This document shows, piece after piece, positions 9,457 through 18,520 of a stretch of 22,300 nucleotides of DNA. Below the pieces are notes generated by a model. That model worked only from the letters and a program-made list of their open reading frames with translations. It had not been told where the DNA came from and did no database searches. Made by a program: the position numbers and the translations under genes. The stretch is from positions 1 to 22,300 of the IMG/VR virus record IMGVR_UViG_3300020421_000155; one strand, given 5' to 3'. The DNA is from a virus. How positions within the stretch are numbered: position 1 is the stretch's first letter; every line of letters begins with the position of its first letter.

Positions 9457-11025
9457 ATGGTACTTAAAAAGTTTATAGACGAAGCAACTGGTGCTTGGAG
9501 AAATGTATCCTATGGTCTCAATAGGGAGGATAGCTTTGAGAGTGGATCTCCTAGAGAATATATACTGAAGCAATTGGAACTGGAGACCCATGATGGTGAT
9601 AAGTTTGACATTGAGAATATTGTAGTAGACTTCTCATATCATGAATCTATTGAGTCTGCCTTTCTTAGGTGTGATATTAGTATTGTAGATGCTGTTAACT
9701 TTTATCAGAGGTTGCAGGGTGGAGAGAAGATCTATATTAATATAGTTACTGCTACTGCTCTTGATAAGGAGCCATTGCAAACTATAATGCAGGTTTATAA
9801 GATTGGTAGTGTGATTAAAGCTGAGAGAGGACAAATGTATATACTACATTGTGTATCTCCAGAGATGTATCATGATGAGATGAATAAGGTATTCAAAGCG
9901 TTTGGACCATATGCTTCTGGGGATGCTGGCAAAGGAGGTGATGATGGTAAGACTAAGACTAAGGTAAAGATTGTACCTAAAGTTATTTGTGAGAAGTATC
10001 TTAAGTGTAAGGGTAATTCTAGGAAGGTTAAGGAAGCAAACTTCGAGCCTCATTCTCCATATAATTTTATAGCATGTAATTGGAAACCATCTGATACCAT
10101 AGCGTATCTCTCTGATAGGGTGACTAGGGAAACTGAGTCTAAAGGATCTAATAAACAGTCGGGTTTCTTATTCTGGGAGAATAGAAATGGATTTAACTTT
10201 AGATCTATTGATGGTATTGCTCAGGGTCATGCTTCTCAGGGCAATATATACACCTACTCCTATACTATGAAGGGTAATGAGGGTGTTGATGGTAGATATG
10301 CTATAGAAAATGTTGCTTATCCAGACAAATCAAATCATCTCTCAAATATGAGAATGGGTACCTATAAGAATTCTGCTATAGGTATATCAATGGGTGCACC
10401 TAAGAATAGTTACGCACCTGATTCTGGTAAGAAGGAGGAGGCAGATGCATCTGAAAGTGTTAATAGTGAGACTGCAACTGCTACTAGTGGTACTGGTATA
10501 AACCCCGCACCAGGCGGTACTATATCAGAGCCTAGGGTGTTAACTTTTAATAGTGTATTTGGTAAGGCGAATAAGGTTACAGCAGCTAAGGGTGGGAAAG
10601 CAGCACCACCAATTGTAATTCCAGATTTCTTTGACATTGATAAGTCAAAACCTACTAGGATGAAGATAAGAGCTCTACCTGGATTAATTCATCAACCTGA
10701 CAAAGCAAATCCGAATAACGGAACAAATCCTGATGTTGACATAATGGCAGTTGCACAATATGCCTCGGCAAGGTATAATTTATTGAAGACGATCAAGTTG
10801 AATATTACCGTTCCTGGTAATAGTGAGTTAACAGCAGGATCTTTAATTAAAGTATTGATACCTGCATCGTTGCAAGATGGTGATAATGTCCAACTAGATC
10901 AACAGTTTAGTGGGTTATATGTTATTGCTGGACTGACTCATATCTGGCGTAGGACTGGTTTAACTACCAAATTATTCTTGGTTAGAGATTCAAAACCTTG
11001 GTCATCTAAGAAAAAGACAGCATAA
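9457..11025 (+). CDS. gp27: Baseplate hub protein gp27
   Basis: 522 residues. gp27 is the trimeric hub ring that holds the gp5 spike and adapts to the six-fold tube. The N-terminal third shows the family pattern: YILKQLELETHDGDKFDIENIVVDFSYHESIES, then CDISIVDAVNFYQRLQGGEKIYINI (start of the first tube-like barrel), then VYKIGSVIKAERGQMYILHCVSPEMYHDE. The last 100 residues include SELTAGSLIKVLIPAS and GLYVIAGLTHIWRRTGLTTKLFLVRDS, the usual end strands. T4 gp27 is 391 residues; the excess is a low-complexity insert (about residues 325-365, Ala/Ser/Thr/Gly rich). The usual partner gp5 follows, but two metabolic genes are placed between them. The ATG directly abuts the preceding stop. Confidence 0.82.
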   Translation: MVLKKFIDEATGAWRNVSYGLNREDSFESGSPREYILKQLELETHDGDKFDIENIVVDFSYHESIESAFLRCDISIVDAVNFYQRLQGGEKIYINIVTATALDKEPLQTIMQVYKIGSVIKAERGQMYILHCVSPEMYHDEMNKVFKAFGPYASGDAGKGGDDGKTKTKVKIVPKVICEKYLKCKGNSRKVKEANFEPHSPYNFIACNWKPSDTIAYLSDRVTRETESKGSNKQSGFLFWENRNGFNFRSIDGIAQGHASQGNIYTYSYTMKGNEGVDGRYAIENVAYPDKSNHLSNMRMGTYKNSAIGISMGAPKNSYAPDSGKKEEADASESVNSETATATSGTGINPAPGGTISEPRVLTFNSVFGKANKVTAAKGGKAAPPIVIPDFFDIDKSKPTRMKIRALPGLIHQPDKANPNNGTNPDVDIMAVAQYASARYNLLKTIKLNITVPGNSELTAGSLIKVLIPASLQDGDNVQLDQQFSGLYVIAGLTHIWRRTGLTTKLFLVRDSKPWSSKKKTA

Positions 11026-14487: not shown

Positions 14488-14516
14488 TTGACAAGTGGTT
14501 AGGACTGATATATACT
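14488..14516 (+). promoter_or_regulatory. Sigma70-type promoter TTGACA-N17-TATACT
   Basis: A perfect -35 hexamer TTGACA (14488-14493) and a 5-of-6 -10 hexamer TATACT (14511-14516) are 17 bases apart, the optimal spacing. The predicted start is near 14523, 15 bases before the first ATG of the small-gene operon. It starts two bases after the gp5 stop codon. This is the strongest host-type promoter I saw in the window and marks the genes behind it as early or host-polymerase-read. Confidence 0.85.
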
Positions 14517-14537
14517 GTATTCAGTGACCCATCCAAC

Positions 14538-14741
14538 ATGGCAGAGATAACAGGAGATACAGACACCTATCTGGAGCATATTTGGATAGATGTGAGCAAG
14601 AGAGAAGTAAAGATCATGGATAATGAGGGATATGATGAGATTGTGACGTGGGAGTTCAGTGAAGACGGAGTGGATGGGTTCACTGAAACATTACAGCACT
14701 TTAAACGCTTAGTCCCAGACGATATGATAACATACCTATGA
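14538..14741 (+). CDS. Small acidic protein, first gene of the talC operon
   Basis: 67 residues, strongly acidic, not recognised. The pattern is a beta hairpin (YLEHIWIDVSKREVKIMDNEG, then YDEIVTWEFSEDGVDGF) followed by a helix (TETLQHFKRLVPDDMITYL), a compact fold seen in small phage regulators, but no family can be named. It is the first ORF behind the TTGACA/TATACT promoter, with a leader of about 15 bases and no Shine-Dalgarno sequence. Its stop overlaps the next start (ATGA at 14738-14741). Confidence 0.7.
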   Translation: MAEITGDTDTYLEHIWIDVSKREVKIMDNEGYDEIVTWEFSEDGVDGFTETLQHFKRLVPDDMITYL

Positions 14742-15001
14742 ATATCATTAATCTAACACAGGGGGAATTCGAGGAGAATGTCCCCTTTTCTCTTAGACTG
14801 GTAGAGAAGGGCAATACCTTGAAGGTTACGACTAACAATGGTGTTGTATGTATTATCTCACCAGTAGCATCTGTTGCTCAAGACCCTGAAGCACCTGATC
14901 TAAATATTCCAAAACCTGATGAGTTTGTTCCAGATCCCGTTGGTACACGTGCCTATGTGGATGGTGCACTCGCACAGATGACACAAGACTTGATGACATG
15001 A
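14738..15001 (+). CDS. Small protein of unknown function
   Basis: 87 residues, not recognised. The N-terminal 55 residues look beta-rich (FSLRLVEKGNTLKVTTNNGVVCIISP), the C-terminal part is Pro/Asp-rich (PEAPDLNIPKPDEFVPDP) and ends in a short helix. It overlaps its neighbours by four bases on both sides (ATGA), so it is translated as part of the operon. No signal peptide or membrane segment. Confidence 0.65.
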   Translation: MNIINLTQGEFEENVPFSLRLVEKGNTLKVTTNNGVVCIISPVASVAQDPEAPDLNIPKPDEFVPDPVGTRAYVDGALAQMTQDLMT

Positions 15002-15264
15002 AAGGACGTATCACCCGCAATTATTGCTACCTAAATGGTAAAGTAGTTGATATGTGGTACATCCAAGGCATCCCTTTCACATTTGAGGAGTTACCTCAAG
15101 CAATGGCAGAATTGGATGAAGTTGAAGAAGAGGCAGCAGACGCTAGAGGTTATAGTATGGAGGACATGTATAAATGGTCCGACTATCTAATAGCAGAGCA
15201 GTGTCACCCACTACTGTTTACAGTAGAAGATTTTATTGAAAACTATGAGGAGGTTCCTGAGTGA
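14998..15264 (+). CDS. Small acidic helical protein upstream of talC
   Basis: 88 residues, not recognised. It begins with short strands (MKGRITRNYCYLNGKVVDMWYIQG) and continues as acidic helix (LPQAMAELDEVEEEAADARGYSMEDM), with aromatic residues toward the end. The ATG overlaps the preceding stop, and its own end carries the strong ribosome site GAGGAGG (15247-15253) for talC, whose GTG overlaps its stop (GTGA). Confidence 0.65.
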   Translation: MKGRITRNYCYLNGKVVDMWYIQGIPFTFEELPQAMAELDEVEEEAADARGYSMEDMYKWSDYLIAEQCHPLLFTVEDFIENYEEVPE

Positions 15265-15950
15265 AGATTTTTTTAGATACTGCTGATGTCCCAACTATTC
15301 TCAAACACTTTGAGACTGGGTTAATCGATGGTGTCACAACTAACCCATCTCTTATTAAGAAGAGTGGTAGAGATCCAGAGGATGTCTATCGTGAGTTAGC
15401 AATGGCAGGTATACCTGACATTAGTATGGAAGTAGTAGAGGACATGATCTTCGAGGGGAGACGACTCGCTGCTGAATTTAACGAAGTGTGTACTATTAAA
15501 GTGCCGTGTACACCAGAAGGACTAAAGGCATGTAAAGTATTATCAGATGATGGAATCAAAGTTAATGTTACACTTATATTCAATGCTTCTCAGGCTATCT
15601 TATCTGCAAAGGCAGGTGCTACGTACGTCAGTCCTTTTATTGGCAGGTTGGACGACAATAGCGTTGCTGGGCTGGAGGTTATCAGATCAATAAGCGAAGT
15701 GTTTAGGGTGCAAGGTGTTAAGACACAGATACTTGCTGCATCTATTCGTGACGTATATAAGGTTAGTAGATCATTCTGGAATGGTGCTAGTATAGTTACT
15801 ATGCCACCTAAGATCTTTGAAGGAATGTATAATCATATCCTTACTGACAGAGGACTAGAGATATTCGATAAAGATTATCAAGCAACTAAGCAGTCAGTAT
15901 TTAATCCACCGACTATCAGAAACGGAAAGGACATGGACATCATACAATGA
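15261..15950 (+). CDS. talC: Transaldolase TalC (small, FSA-type)
   Basis: 229 residues, the size of the short transaldolase/fructose-6-phosphate aldolase family (about 220). It transfers a dihydroxyacetone unit between sugar phosphates in the non-oxidative pentose phosphate pathway. Visible active-site features: Asp6 in IFLDTAD, Asn28 in GVTTNPSLI, the Schiff-base Lys80 in CTIKVPCTPEG, then VNVTLIFNASQA and the Ser/Phe-rich YVSPFIGR loop. The start is GTG at 15261, seven bases after a strong GAGGAGG ribosome site, overlapping the previous stop. Cyanophage TalC is well known; it is thought to favour NADPH and ribose-5-phosphate formation while CP12 blocks the Calvin cycle. Its own stop overlaps the next ATG (ATGA). 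Confidence 0.93.
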   Translation: MKIFLDTADVPTILKHFETGLIDGVTTNPSLIKKSGRDPEDVYRELAMAGIPDISMEVVEDMIFEGRRLAAEFNEVCTIKVPCTPEGLKACKVLSDDGIKVNVTLIFNASQAILSAKAGATYVSPFIGRLDDNSVAGLEVIRSISEVFRVQGVKTQILAASIRDVYKVSRSFWNGASIVTMPPKIFEGMYNHILTDRGLEIFDKDYQATKQSVFNPPTIRNGKDMDIIQ

Positions 15951-16207
15951 AACGTTGGATTGATTTAGATCACGCTACTCCTTGGCATAAGAATCCAGAG
16001 GATGATGATTACATCCCCTCTGGTCCAGAGTATTATAAGAAAGGATCATTTCATAATAAGGTTGGAATGACCTTGATGTGGATTTTCTTTGGTATTGTTA
16101 TTGTGCAGGTCATTCATGCAGTAACAGTAATACCATTTTTTCCTATCCCTTTTACAATCTTATTGGGGTTGGGAGTTGTTGTTTATGTCGCATGGAGGGC
16201 AACATGA
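15947..16207 (+). CDS. Small membrane protein with two TM segments
   Basis: 86 residues. An acidic, aromatic soluble N-terminus of about 38 residues (HATPWHKNPEDDDYIPSG) is followed by two hydrophobic segments, MTLMWIFFGIVIVQVIHAV (about 41-60) and PIPFTILLGLGVVVYVAW (about 66-84), with a short PFF turn between them. No family is recognised. It overlaps talC and the next ORF by four bases each. A role at the host thylakoid or plasma membrane is possible but not shown by the sequence. Confidence 0.7.
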   Translation: MKRWIDLDHATPWHKNPEDDDYIPSGPEYYKKGSFHNKVGMTLMWIFFGIVIVQVIHAVTVIPFFPIPFTILLGLGVVVYVAWRAT

Positions 16208-16383
16208 TATTAAAACAAGAAGTAATTGATAAGATCCAATTGGCAATGTTACACACTAAGAAGAATGGTGACATGAATTGGTTGGATGGTGATGAGATTG
16301 ATGTATGTCTCGCTGGTACATTTGCTGGTGATAAGTTTATTACTATCATTAACAGGACACGTAGTAATACTACAAAGCAATGA
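16204..16383 (+). CDS. Small unknown protein
   Basis: 59 residues, not recognised. It opens with a helix (LKQEVIDKIQLAMLHTKKNG) followed by WLDGDEIDVCLAGTFAGDKFITIINR, which looks like a three-strand sheet. The start at 16204 was chosen because GGAGGG (16194-16199) lies four bases ahead and the ATG overlaps the preceding stop (ATGA); a longer frame from 16078 in the same phase would run inside the membrane protein gene and is unlikely. The stop overlaps the purS start. Confidence 0.65.
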   Translation: MILKQEVIDKIQLAMLHTKKNGDMNWLDGDEIDVCLAGTFAGDKFITIINRTRSNTTKQ

Positions 16384-16703
16384 GATTTAAAGCATTAGTC
16401 TTCGTTAGACTTAGAGGGTCTGTATCAGATGCTGCTGGTAATGCAGTGATGAATAATGTTAAAAGGATTGCCCCTAATCTCACACCACATCTGTTGAGGA
16501 TAGGTAAGGCAATAGATTTCTGGTTTGATGCAGAGACTGAAGAGATAGCAAGAGAGGAGATGGATCTCCTTAGTGATAGGATGCTTGCTAATACTGTGAT
16601 AGAAGATTGGACTTATGACTTAGAAGAGACTGAGGAGACAGGTATAGGTAATATATCTAATGACAATGCTGGTACATCAAAGCATCACATATTTGAAGAA
16701 TGA
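16380..16703 (+). CDS. purS: PurS-like subunit of FGAM synthase
   Basis: 107 residues. The first 80 match the PurS pattern: KALVFVRLRGSVSDAAGNAV, then HLLRIGKAIDFWFDAETEE (usual VRVGKxIDxxxxA), then DLLSDRMLANTVIEDWTYDLEE (usual LLANPVIEDYxxEE). PurS is a small dimer that, with PurQ and PurL, makes formylglycinamidine ribonucleotide in purine synthesis; it bridges the two enzymes and helps ammonia transfer. Usual PurS is about 80-85 residues; here a polar tail of about 25 residues (ETGIGNISNDNAGTSKHH) is added. Cyanomyoviruses are known to carry several pur genes. No purL or purQ is in this window, so it must pair with host or distant phage subunits. It follows talC, whose ribose-5-phosphate feeds the same pathway. 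Confidence 0.82.
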   Translation: MRFKALVFVRLRGSVSDAAGNAVMNNVKRIAPNLTPHLLRIGKAIDFWFDAETEEIAREEMDLLSDRMLANTVIEDWTYDLEETEETGIGNISNDNAGTSKHHIFEE

Positions 16704-17146
16704 ATGTAACACATTTACCATGTTGGACTCAAGTAGATATACATTGGGACCATATAATTGAGAAGATAAATGGTGATGTCAAGGATGGACAGTGGGGATA
16801 TTCTAATGATAAGACCCCAGATGAAATACTTCCTACCATTATACTAGAGGGTAACAACTTACCCTCTTCTTTTGTGCCTGTTGCTCAGAAGGTGTATAAT
16901 GATTTTGGTTTTGCTATTCTTGATACCTATGTGGCATTTACTCCACAGTCAAAGACATTTGGTAGGCATTGTGATGATCAAGATGTATTCATAGTTGGTG
17001 CTATAGGTGCCACTAAGTATAGATTTGACGACGGTAAGATATATACTATATGGCCAGGATGTGGTATTTACATACCTGCTGGCACATATCATGAGCCTAT
17101 AAGTTGCACACCGAGAGCAGTATTGAGTTTTTCTAATGATAATTGA
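16700..17146 (+). CDS. Cupin/JmjC-like putative Fe(II)-dependent oxygenase
   Basis: 148 residues. The C-terminal half has the metal-binding pattern of JmjC/cupin-type proteins: FGRHCDDQDVFIVGAIGATKYRF with His90-x-Asp92, Lys106 at the place often used for 2-oxoglutarate, then WPGCGIYIPAGTYHEPIS with the distal His131. The GAGTYHEP turn is typical of the second cupin motif. A full JmjC domain is longer, so this is a minimal double-stranded beta helix. The substrate is unknown. The ATG overlaps the purS stop (ATGA), and its last 11 bases overlap the next gene, also a putative oxygenase. 2-oxoglutarate dependence is an inference; a non-enzymatic metal cupin is the alternative. Confidence 0.68.
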   Translation: MNVTHLPCWTQVDIHWDHIIEKINGDVKDGQWGYSNDKTPDEILPTIILEGNNLPSSFVPVAQKVYNDFGFAILDTYVAFTPQSKTFGRHCDDQDVFIVGAIGATKYRFDDGKIYTIWPGCGIYIPAGTYHEPISCTPRAVLSFSNDN

Positions 17147-17786
17147 TAAAGGTGATCATAGATTCATACATCCTTGGGGTGTGCCCATATTTCATTCAAC
17201 GTTGACTGTTGATGAATTAAAGTTTTTTCAAGATCAGGCAGAAACTGCTAGAAGAGCTAAGGTGTCAGAAGAAAGGTCACTTGCTGGTAATATAAAAGAA
17301 CAGTATATTGGTGTAAAAGGTAGATATAGAGATCAACGAATTGTAGATATATTAAGTCCACATATAATAAATTATATAAAGTATGAATTATCAAGGTTAT
17401 CTGATCTAAATTCGTTTGTTAAACCTAAATATAGAAAGCCAGTACAATCATTAGACTCTATACGTTTTGATTTAGGTGGACCTTGGTTTAACTTTATGAA
17501 GAAAGGAGAGTTTAATCCTTTACATGCACATAATGGTGCTATTAGTGGTATTCTTATGATAAAAGTACCCGAGGAAATAGACAATGAAGATGAATTGTAT
17601 TCTATCGATACAAATTTAAGATGTCCTGGATATGTAGAGTGGGTATGTAATGATGGATCTCATCAGGTACGACCAAAAGAAGGAGATATTTATTTGTTTG
17701 ATGCAAGGTTAAGACATTTAGTTTATCCTTTTCAAAGTGACGTTGAGAGAATTACATCAAGTTTCAATGTATTTACAAATGCCTGA
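17136..17786 (+). CDS. Putative 2OG-Fe(II) oxygenase
   Basis: 216 residues of the phage/marine-bacterial family of putative 2-oxoglutarate-Fe(II) oxygenases (PF13759-like in appearance). Key parts: HPWGVPIFHSTL at the start; GGPWFNFMKKGEFNPLHAHNGAISGILMIKVP with His130 and His132, the region that holds the first metal ligands; then GDIYLFDARLRHLVYPFQSDVERITSSFN with His194 and Arg205, the usual distal His and the 2-oxoglutarate-binding Arg. Such genes are common in cyanomyoviruses; their substrates are mostly unknown. The ATG overlaps the preceding gene by 11 bases. Base composition here looks more AT-rich than in talC, but I did not compute it. Confidence 0.8.
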   Translation: MIIDKGDHRFIHPWGVPIFHSTLTVDELKFFQDQAETARRAKVSEERSLAGNIKEQYIGVKGRYRDQRIVDILSPHIINYIKYELSRLSDLNSFVKPKYRKPVQSLDSIRFDLGGPWFNFMKKGEFNPLHAHNGAISGILMIKVPEEIDNEDELYSIDTNLRCPGYVEWVCNDGSHQVRPKEGDIYLFDARLRHLVYPFQSDVERITSSFNVFTNA

Positions 17787-17943
17787 AGATATACAATGGT
17801 CCCTAGAGGACTTAAAGAAATCCATACTTGACAGTGCTGAAGAGTATGATAGACTATTGAAAAATGGAGAGCCAAATGACATCACCACCTTTACCAGAAT
17901 GGGGTCCGAACAGACAGAAACAGAGACACCAAGTAAAGAGTAG
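17779..17943 (+). CDS. Short acidic protein of unknown function
   Basis: 54 residues using the ATG at 17779, which overlaps the oxygenase stop by eight bases; a GTG at 17737 would lengthen the overlap without adding a ribosome site. The helix PEDIQWSLEDLKKSILDSAEEYDRLLKNGE looks like a small helical hairpin, and the end is Thr/Glu-rich. No family is recognised. It overlaps the next gene by 68 bases, the largest overlap of the operon. Confidence 0.5.
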   Translation: MPEDIQWSLEDLKKSILDSAEEYDRLLKNGEPNDITTFTRMGSEQTETETPSKE

Positions 17944-18091
17944 ATTCTATTACTTATTTTGGGGTATTGCAACATTTTCTGTAGTAGCAGGTCAACTGTA
18001 TGTTGGTAGTGGTTACAGAGACTATGCTAAGTCACTTAATAGATTATTTGATACTATTGAAGTAGAAGTGAATCAACCAAGATTCTATTGA
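17876..18091 (+). CDS. Small single-span membrane protein
   Basis: 71 residues. The N-terminus is polar and basic (PPLPEWGPNRQKQRHQVKS), followed by one hydrophobic segment YYLFWGIATFSVVAGQLYVG (about residues 26-45) and a polar tail. The Lys/Arg before the segment suggest an N-in orientation. The ATG at 17876 was preferred to 17864 because GGAGA (17866-17870) stands five bases ahead. It is the last ORF of the promoter-driven run and ends 9 bases before a hairpin. Confidence 0.65.
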   Translation: MTSPPLPEWGPNRQKQRHQVKSRFYYLFWGIATFSVVAGQLYVGSGYRDYAKSLNRLFDTIEVEVNQPRFY

Positions 18092-18176: not shown

Positions 18177-18389
18177 TCAACAGAGCAGTTGTCTACAGAG
18201 TCTTTTGTCTTGCTCATTACCCTCGCTCTCAATCAGACAAGCGAAGTAATCATCTATTAATTCGTCTTGTGGTGTTGTTAAGCAACGGTTGTCATCGTGG
18301 GAGTGTTTCCACTCAGCTAATTGATTCTTTGACATTAGATTGTGCATAGTCTCTCGAATAAAGGGATATAACGAAGTTGAAGTTTTCAC
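18177..18389 (-). CDS. Small minus-strand gene with own promoter and terminator
   Basis: 70 residues from a GTG at 18389; an ATG at 18347 would give 56 residues starting MHNLMSKNQ, and I cannot decide between them. The protein is polar and helical (MSKNQLAEWKHSHDD, then TPQDELIDDYFACLIESEGNEQD) with four Cys, three of them near the end or centre. No family is recognised. Three features argue that it is real: protein-like composition, a minus-strand TATAAATA 30 bases upstream of the GTG, and a hairpin followed by a T-rich stretch downstream on the same strand. It lies alone between two plus-strand blocks. Confidence 0.62.
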   Translation of the reverse strand: MKTSTSLYPFIRETMHNLMSKNQLAEWKHSHDDNRCLTTPQDELIDDYFACLIESEGNEQDKRLCRQLLC

Positions 18390-18418: not shown

Positions 18419-18426
18419 TATTTATA
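18419..18426 (-). promoter_or_regulatory. Late-type promoter TATAAATA for the minus-strand gene
   Basis: The minus strand reads TATAAATA from 18426 to 18419, about 30 bases before the GTG at 18389. An AGGAAA lies in the predicted leader, 14 bases before the GTG. The element faces away from the plus-strand TATAAATA at 18513, so the two form a divergent pair. Confidence 0.55.
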
Positions 18427-18512: not shown

Positions 18513-18520
18513 TATAAATA
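18513..18520 (+). promoter_or_regulatory. Late-type promoter TATAAATA for the fibre block
   Basis: A perfect TATAAATA lies 27 bases before the GTG start of the first fibre-type gene and opens the plus-strand structural block after the minus-strand gene. TTGAAG at 18490-18495 stands exactly 17 bases upstream of the TATAAA part, so host sigma70 could also read it weakly; T4-type late promoters need no -35. Confidence 0.62.

Follow-up and report, generated by a model that had tools for sequence, protein, structure and literature searches.

A window of 22,300 nucleotides (nt), positions 1 to 22,300 of the IMG/VR virus record IMGVR_UViG_3300020421_000155, is a fragment of a T4-like cyanophage (Kyanoviridae). 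In it, a run of 11 open reading frames (ORFs) that includes the metabolic genes talC and purS occupies the slot between gp5 and a gene for a virion structural protein of 448 amino acids (aa). We conclude, with considerable confidence, that this run represents cargo carried at an insertion hot spot situated between these two genes in T4-like cyanophages, with a conserved promoter and leader genes, swappable cargo and expression earlier than that of its surroundings. The sequences compared here show that the slot begins with a conserved sigma-70-type promoter and the leaders ORF1-ORF2(-ORF3), followed in this clade by talC, with ORF10-ORF11 last; the interval from talC to ORF10 varies by phage and in the window holds ORF5-ORF6-purS-ORF8-ORF9.

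The gp5 gene of the window is a 910-aa ORF (baseplate hub/lysozyme) with closest matches in P-TIM40, P-RSM6, S-SZBM1 and S-WAM1, all Kyanoviridae. Other genes of the window include those for baseplate, tail-tube cap, head-closure and DNA-end-protector proteins and CpeT. With gp5 and a virion gene on its two sides, the cassette thus sits inserted among the late structural genes. The features by which we recognise the slot are present: gp5 upstream and the 448-aa virion gene downstream, and, at the head, a DUF7294 gene and a small Phd-like gene, in the order seen in P-SSM7. The same slot is found in P-SSM7, P-TIM40, P-RSM6, S-WAM1 and S-SZBM1.

A conserved promoter precedes the cassette

An earlier note on this DNA, made from the letters alone, had described a TTGACA-N17-TATACT promoter followed by 11 tightly overlapping ORFs, and this description is correct. 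The 11 co-directional ORFs extend from 14538 to 18091 with ten overlaps and no intergenic base; seven junctions overlap by 4 bases (six ATGA, one GTGA) and the others by 11, 8 and 80. The -35 element TTGACA (14488-14493), a 17-nt spacer and the -10 element TATACT (14511-14516) directly follow the gp5 stop codon, with a predicted start at about 14523. This plus-strand site (14488-14516) agrees with the consensus at 11 of 12 positions and is the top one of 21 promoter-like sites in the 12-20 kb region, where such sites are not in excess (26.0 expected from shuffles). It has the TTGACA/TATAAT-like hexamers, the 17-nt spacing and the conserved position of a sigma-70 early promoter.

The promoter gained comparative support. 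Each of the 22 non-redundant talC-bearing cassettes has a TTG[AC]CA-N17-TATA-type site upstream of ORF1, and in 21 of them the site matches the consensus at 10 or more of its 12 positions. A match of at least 10/12 was seen in 69% of 42 non-redundant slots, compared with 0.7% of shuffled sequences and 0-24% at other gene starts of the same loci. The -10 element ends about 21-28 nt upstream of ORF1 in those talC-bearing cassettes that have a clear start. In the window and in loci L007 and L180 the -35 element follows the gp5 stop, and in L002, L009, L012-L015 and others it is TTGCCA within the last gp5 codons; at that codon position gp5 of the window has TTACCA, with TTGACA present after the stop instead. 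L003 and L010 each carry an unrelated gene between gp5 and the promoter, and the promoter is still directly before ORF1. The inserted genes encode a 398-aa phrog_15918 protein with a ParB-like stretch (L003, 4024-5220) and a 303-aa phrog_5931 protein (L010, 4336-5247). The slot of the cultured phage P-SSM7 (L142) also lies behind TTGACA-N17-TATACT.

In cyanomyoviruses, sigma-70-like promoters precede early genes and NATAAATA precedes late genes (PMC2984593), and talC of P-HM2 belongs to the middle expression cluster (PMC5082946). Of 42 relatives, all have the late motif ATAAATA upstream of the 448-aa gene; of 41, none has it ahead of ORF1. In the window, the late-promoter motif of the 448-aa gene is TATAAATA at 18513-18520 (plus strand). 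On this comparative evidence we take the predicted promoter to be real, and the 11 genes very probably form one early/middle transcription unit inside the late region.

The cargo varies between slots

To survey the slot we used loci fetched through the 448-aa gene, and hence without selection on talC; they gave 74 complete gp5-to-448 slots, some of which are near-duplicates. ORF1 was present in 67 slots, ORF2 in 68, ORF3 in 49 and ORF8 in 13. The genes talC, ORF10 and ORF11 and a minus-strand phrog_665 gene co-occurred in the same 19 slots, all of one clade. A few talC cassettes lack ORF3, and ORFs 1-3 also head talC-free slots. ORF6 was found in a single slot, ORF9 in three (at only about 30% identity), and purS and ORF5 in none of the 74. 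The sequence comparison thus identifies ORFs 5, 6, 7 (purS), 8 and 9 as variable cargo, and talC, the clade's standard cargo, and purS, a separate addition, as apparently independent passengers. The earlier note had named absence or random occurrence of the small ORFs next to talC as evidence against its proposal; ORFs 1-3, 10 and 11 proved regular within one clade, whereas ORFs 5, 6, 8 and 9, like purS, did not.

The small ORFs are, as that note supposed, genes. All 11 ORFs have homologues under purifying selection, with median ratios of nonsynonymous to synonymous substitution (dN/dS) of 0.12-0.40, well below one; most lie at 0.12-0.24, with 0.40 for ORF10 and 0.36 for ORF9 (just 3 homologues). 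Of the DNA matches to the cassette, 76% begin no more than 10 bp from a gene start, compared with 6% at random, and none crossed the end of talC.

The segment ORF5-ORF6-purS probably entered the slot from other loci, as a block or stepwise, because its gene pairs recur, the edges of DNA matches fall at gene starts and a donor-like match exists in L109 (ORF6 and purS, 87.5% over 502 bp, the best such match). The ORF5-ORF6(-purS) block recurs at other loci; among the 18 relatives of ORF5 that were fetched, none neighbours either gp5 or the gene for the 448-aa protein, and ORF6 adjoins many of them. The P-SSM7 slot holds gp5, the DUF7294 gene, a Phd-like antitoxin gene, members of the ORF11 and ORF6 families, purS and 2-oxoglutarate (2OG) oxygenases. 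There ORF6 and purS are not adjacent, in the same slot of L159 they are, and this suggests that the two genes arrived in the slot repeatedly.

Alternative explanations

It is quite improbable, in our judgement, that the cassette lacks a dedicated promoter and is read through from gp5 with the late genes, the hexamers being there by chance or as a by-product of gp5 coding. The lack of an overall excess of promoter-like sites in the region is in line with read-through, as are the location of TTGCCA in gp5's conserved GLPVLLN end and the absence of the site from some relatives. However, the site is re-formed outside gp5 in the window, L007 and L180 and downstream of an inserted gene in L003 and L010; it keeps its distance to ORF1 and is far more frequent than in shuffled sequences, and no late motif precedes ORF1. 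Several observations do weigh against a hot spot with its own early promoter. The promoter is not universal, because in P-RSM6, S-WAM1 and the L247-L248 type ORF1 abuts gp5 without a recognisable site. Coding constraint partly preserves the TTGCCA inside gp5. ORF11 could be transcribed separately from an internal promoter-like TTGACA-N16-TAGACT (17828-17855; 10/12 matches), which lies inside ORF10 and before ORF11. All 19 talC slots belong to a single clade, and therefore common descent may explain their unity, with the shared content being mere inheritance. Finally, the homologous DNA segments agree with gene boundaries better at starts (76%) than at stops (38%).

The earlier note had proposed that the 11 ORFs work jointly, as one system not yet described, in the takeover of host metabolism, and that the small proteins may be partners of the known enzymes, TalC and PurS, or may regulate them. 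Tight overlaps, a single promoter and purifying selection on every gene fit this proposal, and so does the presence of talC, ORF10 and ORF11 together in all 19 talC slots. The slot survey largely refutes it, however, by the distribution of purS, ORF5 and ORF6, and talC lies within 4 kb of purS in only 7 of 80 purS loci. Nor are the overlaps telling, since cyanophage genes commonly overlap: among neighbouring genes in stretches of annotated genomes, 54% of pairs do so and 20% share exactly 4 bases, and a 10-gene run occurs in S-TIM5; run length and 4-base overlaps are unexceptional for these phages. We therefore regard joint function of the 11 genes as very improbable indeed. A narrower proposal, that ORF6, alone or together with ORF5, assists PurS in its function and travels with purS, is somewhat better placed though still unlikely. 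ORF6 lies directly upstream of purS with the same 4-base overlap in 18 of the 72 purS loci with enough upstream sequence, mostly away from gp5; five further purS loci have ORF5-ORF6-purS with an 83-nt gap, AG-345-O18 has the three genes in the same order, and ORF6 is highly conserved (mean column identity 86%). Yet most purS loci lack ORF6, which elsewhere stands beside a phosphoribosyl transferase gene (P-SSM2), gp55 (S-SSM7), denV (P-HM2), talC (L176), ORF8 (L003) or a 2OG oxygenase gene, the first three of these neighbours also speaking against the single system, and its fold model (predicted local distance difference test, pLDDT, 74) had no informative match. Because ORF6 immediately precedes purS at only one in four purS loci and otherwise adjoins unrelated genes, it does not appear to be a dedicated purS partner.

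Genes of the cassette

ORF1 (14538-14741, plus strand, as are all ORFs of the run) is the slot leader gene of the DUF7294/phrog_662 family (PF23966, E value 2.5e-24; dN/dS 0.12); its profile gave nothing convincing against solved structures. ORF2 (14738-15001; phrog_31964) is a predicted Phd/YefM-fold protein. It matched the Phd-like antitoxin family phrog_375 weakly (E value 3.9e-5), and PF02604 was matched by 9 of 26 members of its family (best 1.3e-5), the window member giving no match; aligned relatives from other slots have a Phd-like pattern around an E.G.TI.I core. The AlphaFold2 model has a pLDDT of about 90 over residues 1-40 and, in Foldseek, ranks 1-19 were all Phd/YefM/VapB46 structures, but with E values of 0.03-0.28, none at or below 0.001. 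ORF2 would resemble Phd/YefM antitoxins in its predicted fold, and it is the second gene behind the promoter; unlike them, it has weak sequence membership and no toxin gene found nearby, as no toxin family was detected among the cassette ORFs with Pfam, PHROGs and PADLOC. Inverted repeats, searched as possible operators, were only weakly enriched near the promoter, with z 2.6 downstream of the -10 element against 2.2 in the spacer, the stretch used for comparison. ORF3 (14998-15264; phrog_4134) is a small protein with a conserved YEEVPE end (15246-15264), the codons of which include GAGGAGG, some 8 nt upstream of the GTG that starts talC; this sequence may serve as the talC ribosome site, the protein end doubling in that role.

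The names talC and purS, given in the earlier note, are correct. The gene talC (15261-15950, GTG start) encodes a small transaldolase (PF00923, E value 9.3e-51; phrog_440; PDB 1vpx, E value 9.6e-53), scoring 173.3 bits against a cutoff of 27 for PF00923 (TAL_FSA). The score against the equivalog TIGR00875 was 213.5 bits, below the curated cutoff of 245.95, and family membership is therefore assigned from PF00923 and phrog_440. The lysine of its IKVPCT motif aligns with that of IKIPMT in 1vpx and is taken as the Schiff-base lysine, which is catalytic in this family. Cyanophage TalC transaldolases belong to the same family; the window gene differs in lying between gp5 and tail genes, a neighbourhood that 66 of 80 talC loci do not have.

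ORF5 (15947-16207) is a small membrane protein, with hydrophobic segments recognised by eye and no family, and ORF6 (16204-16383; 59 aa) belongs to phrog_475/T4-GC 41. The ORF6 profile gave nothing convincing against solved structures. Among defence families, ORF6 gave one marginal hit, to a restriction enzyme (E value 0.004, 14.2 bits), over just a short stretch of the 359-position profile; we took it as chance. The gene purS (16380-16703) encodes the small subunit of FGAM synthase (PF02700, E value 1.2e-14; PDB PurS 1t4a), with 54.7 bits against a cutoff of 22.2 for PF02700 and 43.7 against 39 for TIGR00302; for PRK05974 it scored 57.6, below the cutoff of 75. In cyanophages, PurS homologues (about 107 aa in P-SSM7, L202, and P-SSM2, L205) often carry the annotation purL, a name that misleads.

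ORF8 (16700-17146) is a cupin/JmjC-like putative Fe(II) oxygenase (JmjC_2, E value 5.6e-6, above the Pfam cutoff) with a visible H..D..H pattern, and ORF9 (17136-17786) is a 2OG-Fe(II) oxygenase (PF13759, E value 7e-16; 58.9 bits against a cutoff of 27) with three relatives at 56%, outside the gp5 slot. Different 2OG-Fe(II) oxygenases stand at different positions of the cassette in L002 (3077-3679), L006 (7418-7996), L008 (6874-7455) and L180 (6412-6987), as if this function had been supplied to the cassette again and again. ORF10 (17779-17943) is a clade-specific tail gene of the cassette without a family. ORF11 (17864-18091) is a phrog_2000 small membrane protein; it more likely starts at the ATG at 17876, which is preceded by GGAGAG, and would then overlap ORF10 by about 68 bases instead of 80.

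The convergent phrog_665 gene (18177-18389, minus strand), with TATAAATA upstream of it at 18426 on the minus strand, closes the slot, and a terminator-like hairpin and T-run of this gene lies at 18118-18101 (minus strand). The phrog_665 gene is present in all 19 talC slots, with a plus-strand match in a few relatives (L006, L009, L175, L177). On the other side of gp5, a 79-aa gene (phrog_627) at 11041-11280 matches a P-TIM40 gene annotated CP12 with 69% identity, and therefore cp12 and talC flank gp5 on opposite sides; an ATAAATA motif lies just upstream of this gene, at 11021.

Relation to known hot spots and possible mechanism

Insertion hot spots of this kind are known: one near gp5, with talC/cp12 near gp5, was described by Sullivan et al. 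(2010; PMC3037559), and the window resembles it in having variable small and metabolic genes beside gp5. The published hot spot is reported with tRNA genes close by, whereas no tRNA gene was found in the window (nor any Rfam family). Among the slots of relatives, those of S-WAM1 and S-SZBM1 have tRNAs and those of P-SSM7, P-TIM40 and P-RSM6 show none; the proximity of tRNAs is thus an association and not a requirement. What is new is the conserved promoter, the leader genes with the predicted Phd fold, the independence of talC and purS, and the particular cargo, talC, purS and two oxygenases being a new combination; the parts of PMC3037559 considered contain no description of the promoter or the Phd-fold leader. 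According to PMC2984593 and PMC3037559, the g15-g18 hyperplastic region that Millard et al. (2009) described in cyanomyoviruses likewise holds variable host-type genes inside the structural module, but at a different position and with zwf/gnd/petE/PTOX, not talC/purS.

Host RNA polymerase would transcribe the cassette early or in mid-phase, ahead of its TATAAATA-driven late neighbours. Recombination would swap cargo genes as units from start codon to stop codon, and the 4-base stop/start overlaps would couple translation of a newcomer to that of its upstream neighbour. TalC would push pentose-phosphate flux and PurS would support purine synthesis, the two serving phage DNA synthesis in parallel and not as a single complex. 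More speculatively, ORF2 may autoregulate the cassette promoter, and the protein, with its modelled Phd/YefM fold, is the most novel lead as a possible regulator of the cassette. A bolder version, in which the gp5 slot of many T4-like cyanophages is a dedicated cargo expression site, with a promoter that re-forms when its surroundings change, ORF2 as a toxin-free Phd-fold autorepressor and ATG-to-TGA cargo units joined by 4-base overlaps, is a tentative idea that we hold possible but doubtful. If it were true, an incoming metabolic gene would be expressed at once, without a promoter or ribosome site of its own.

The cassette warns that tight overlaps alone do not imply joint function. The hot spot would explain how auxiliary metabolic genes come to be placed in the late structural module and yet be expressed earlier, and its constant parts, the promoter, ORF1 and ORF2, define the site, making its cargo comparable across many marine phage contigs.

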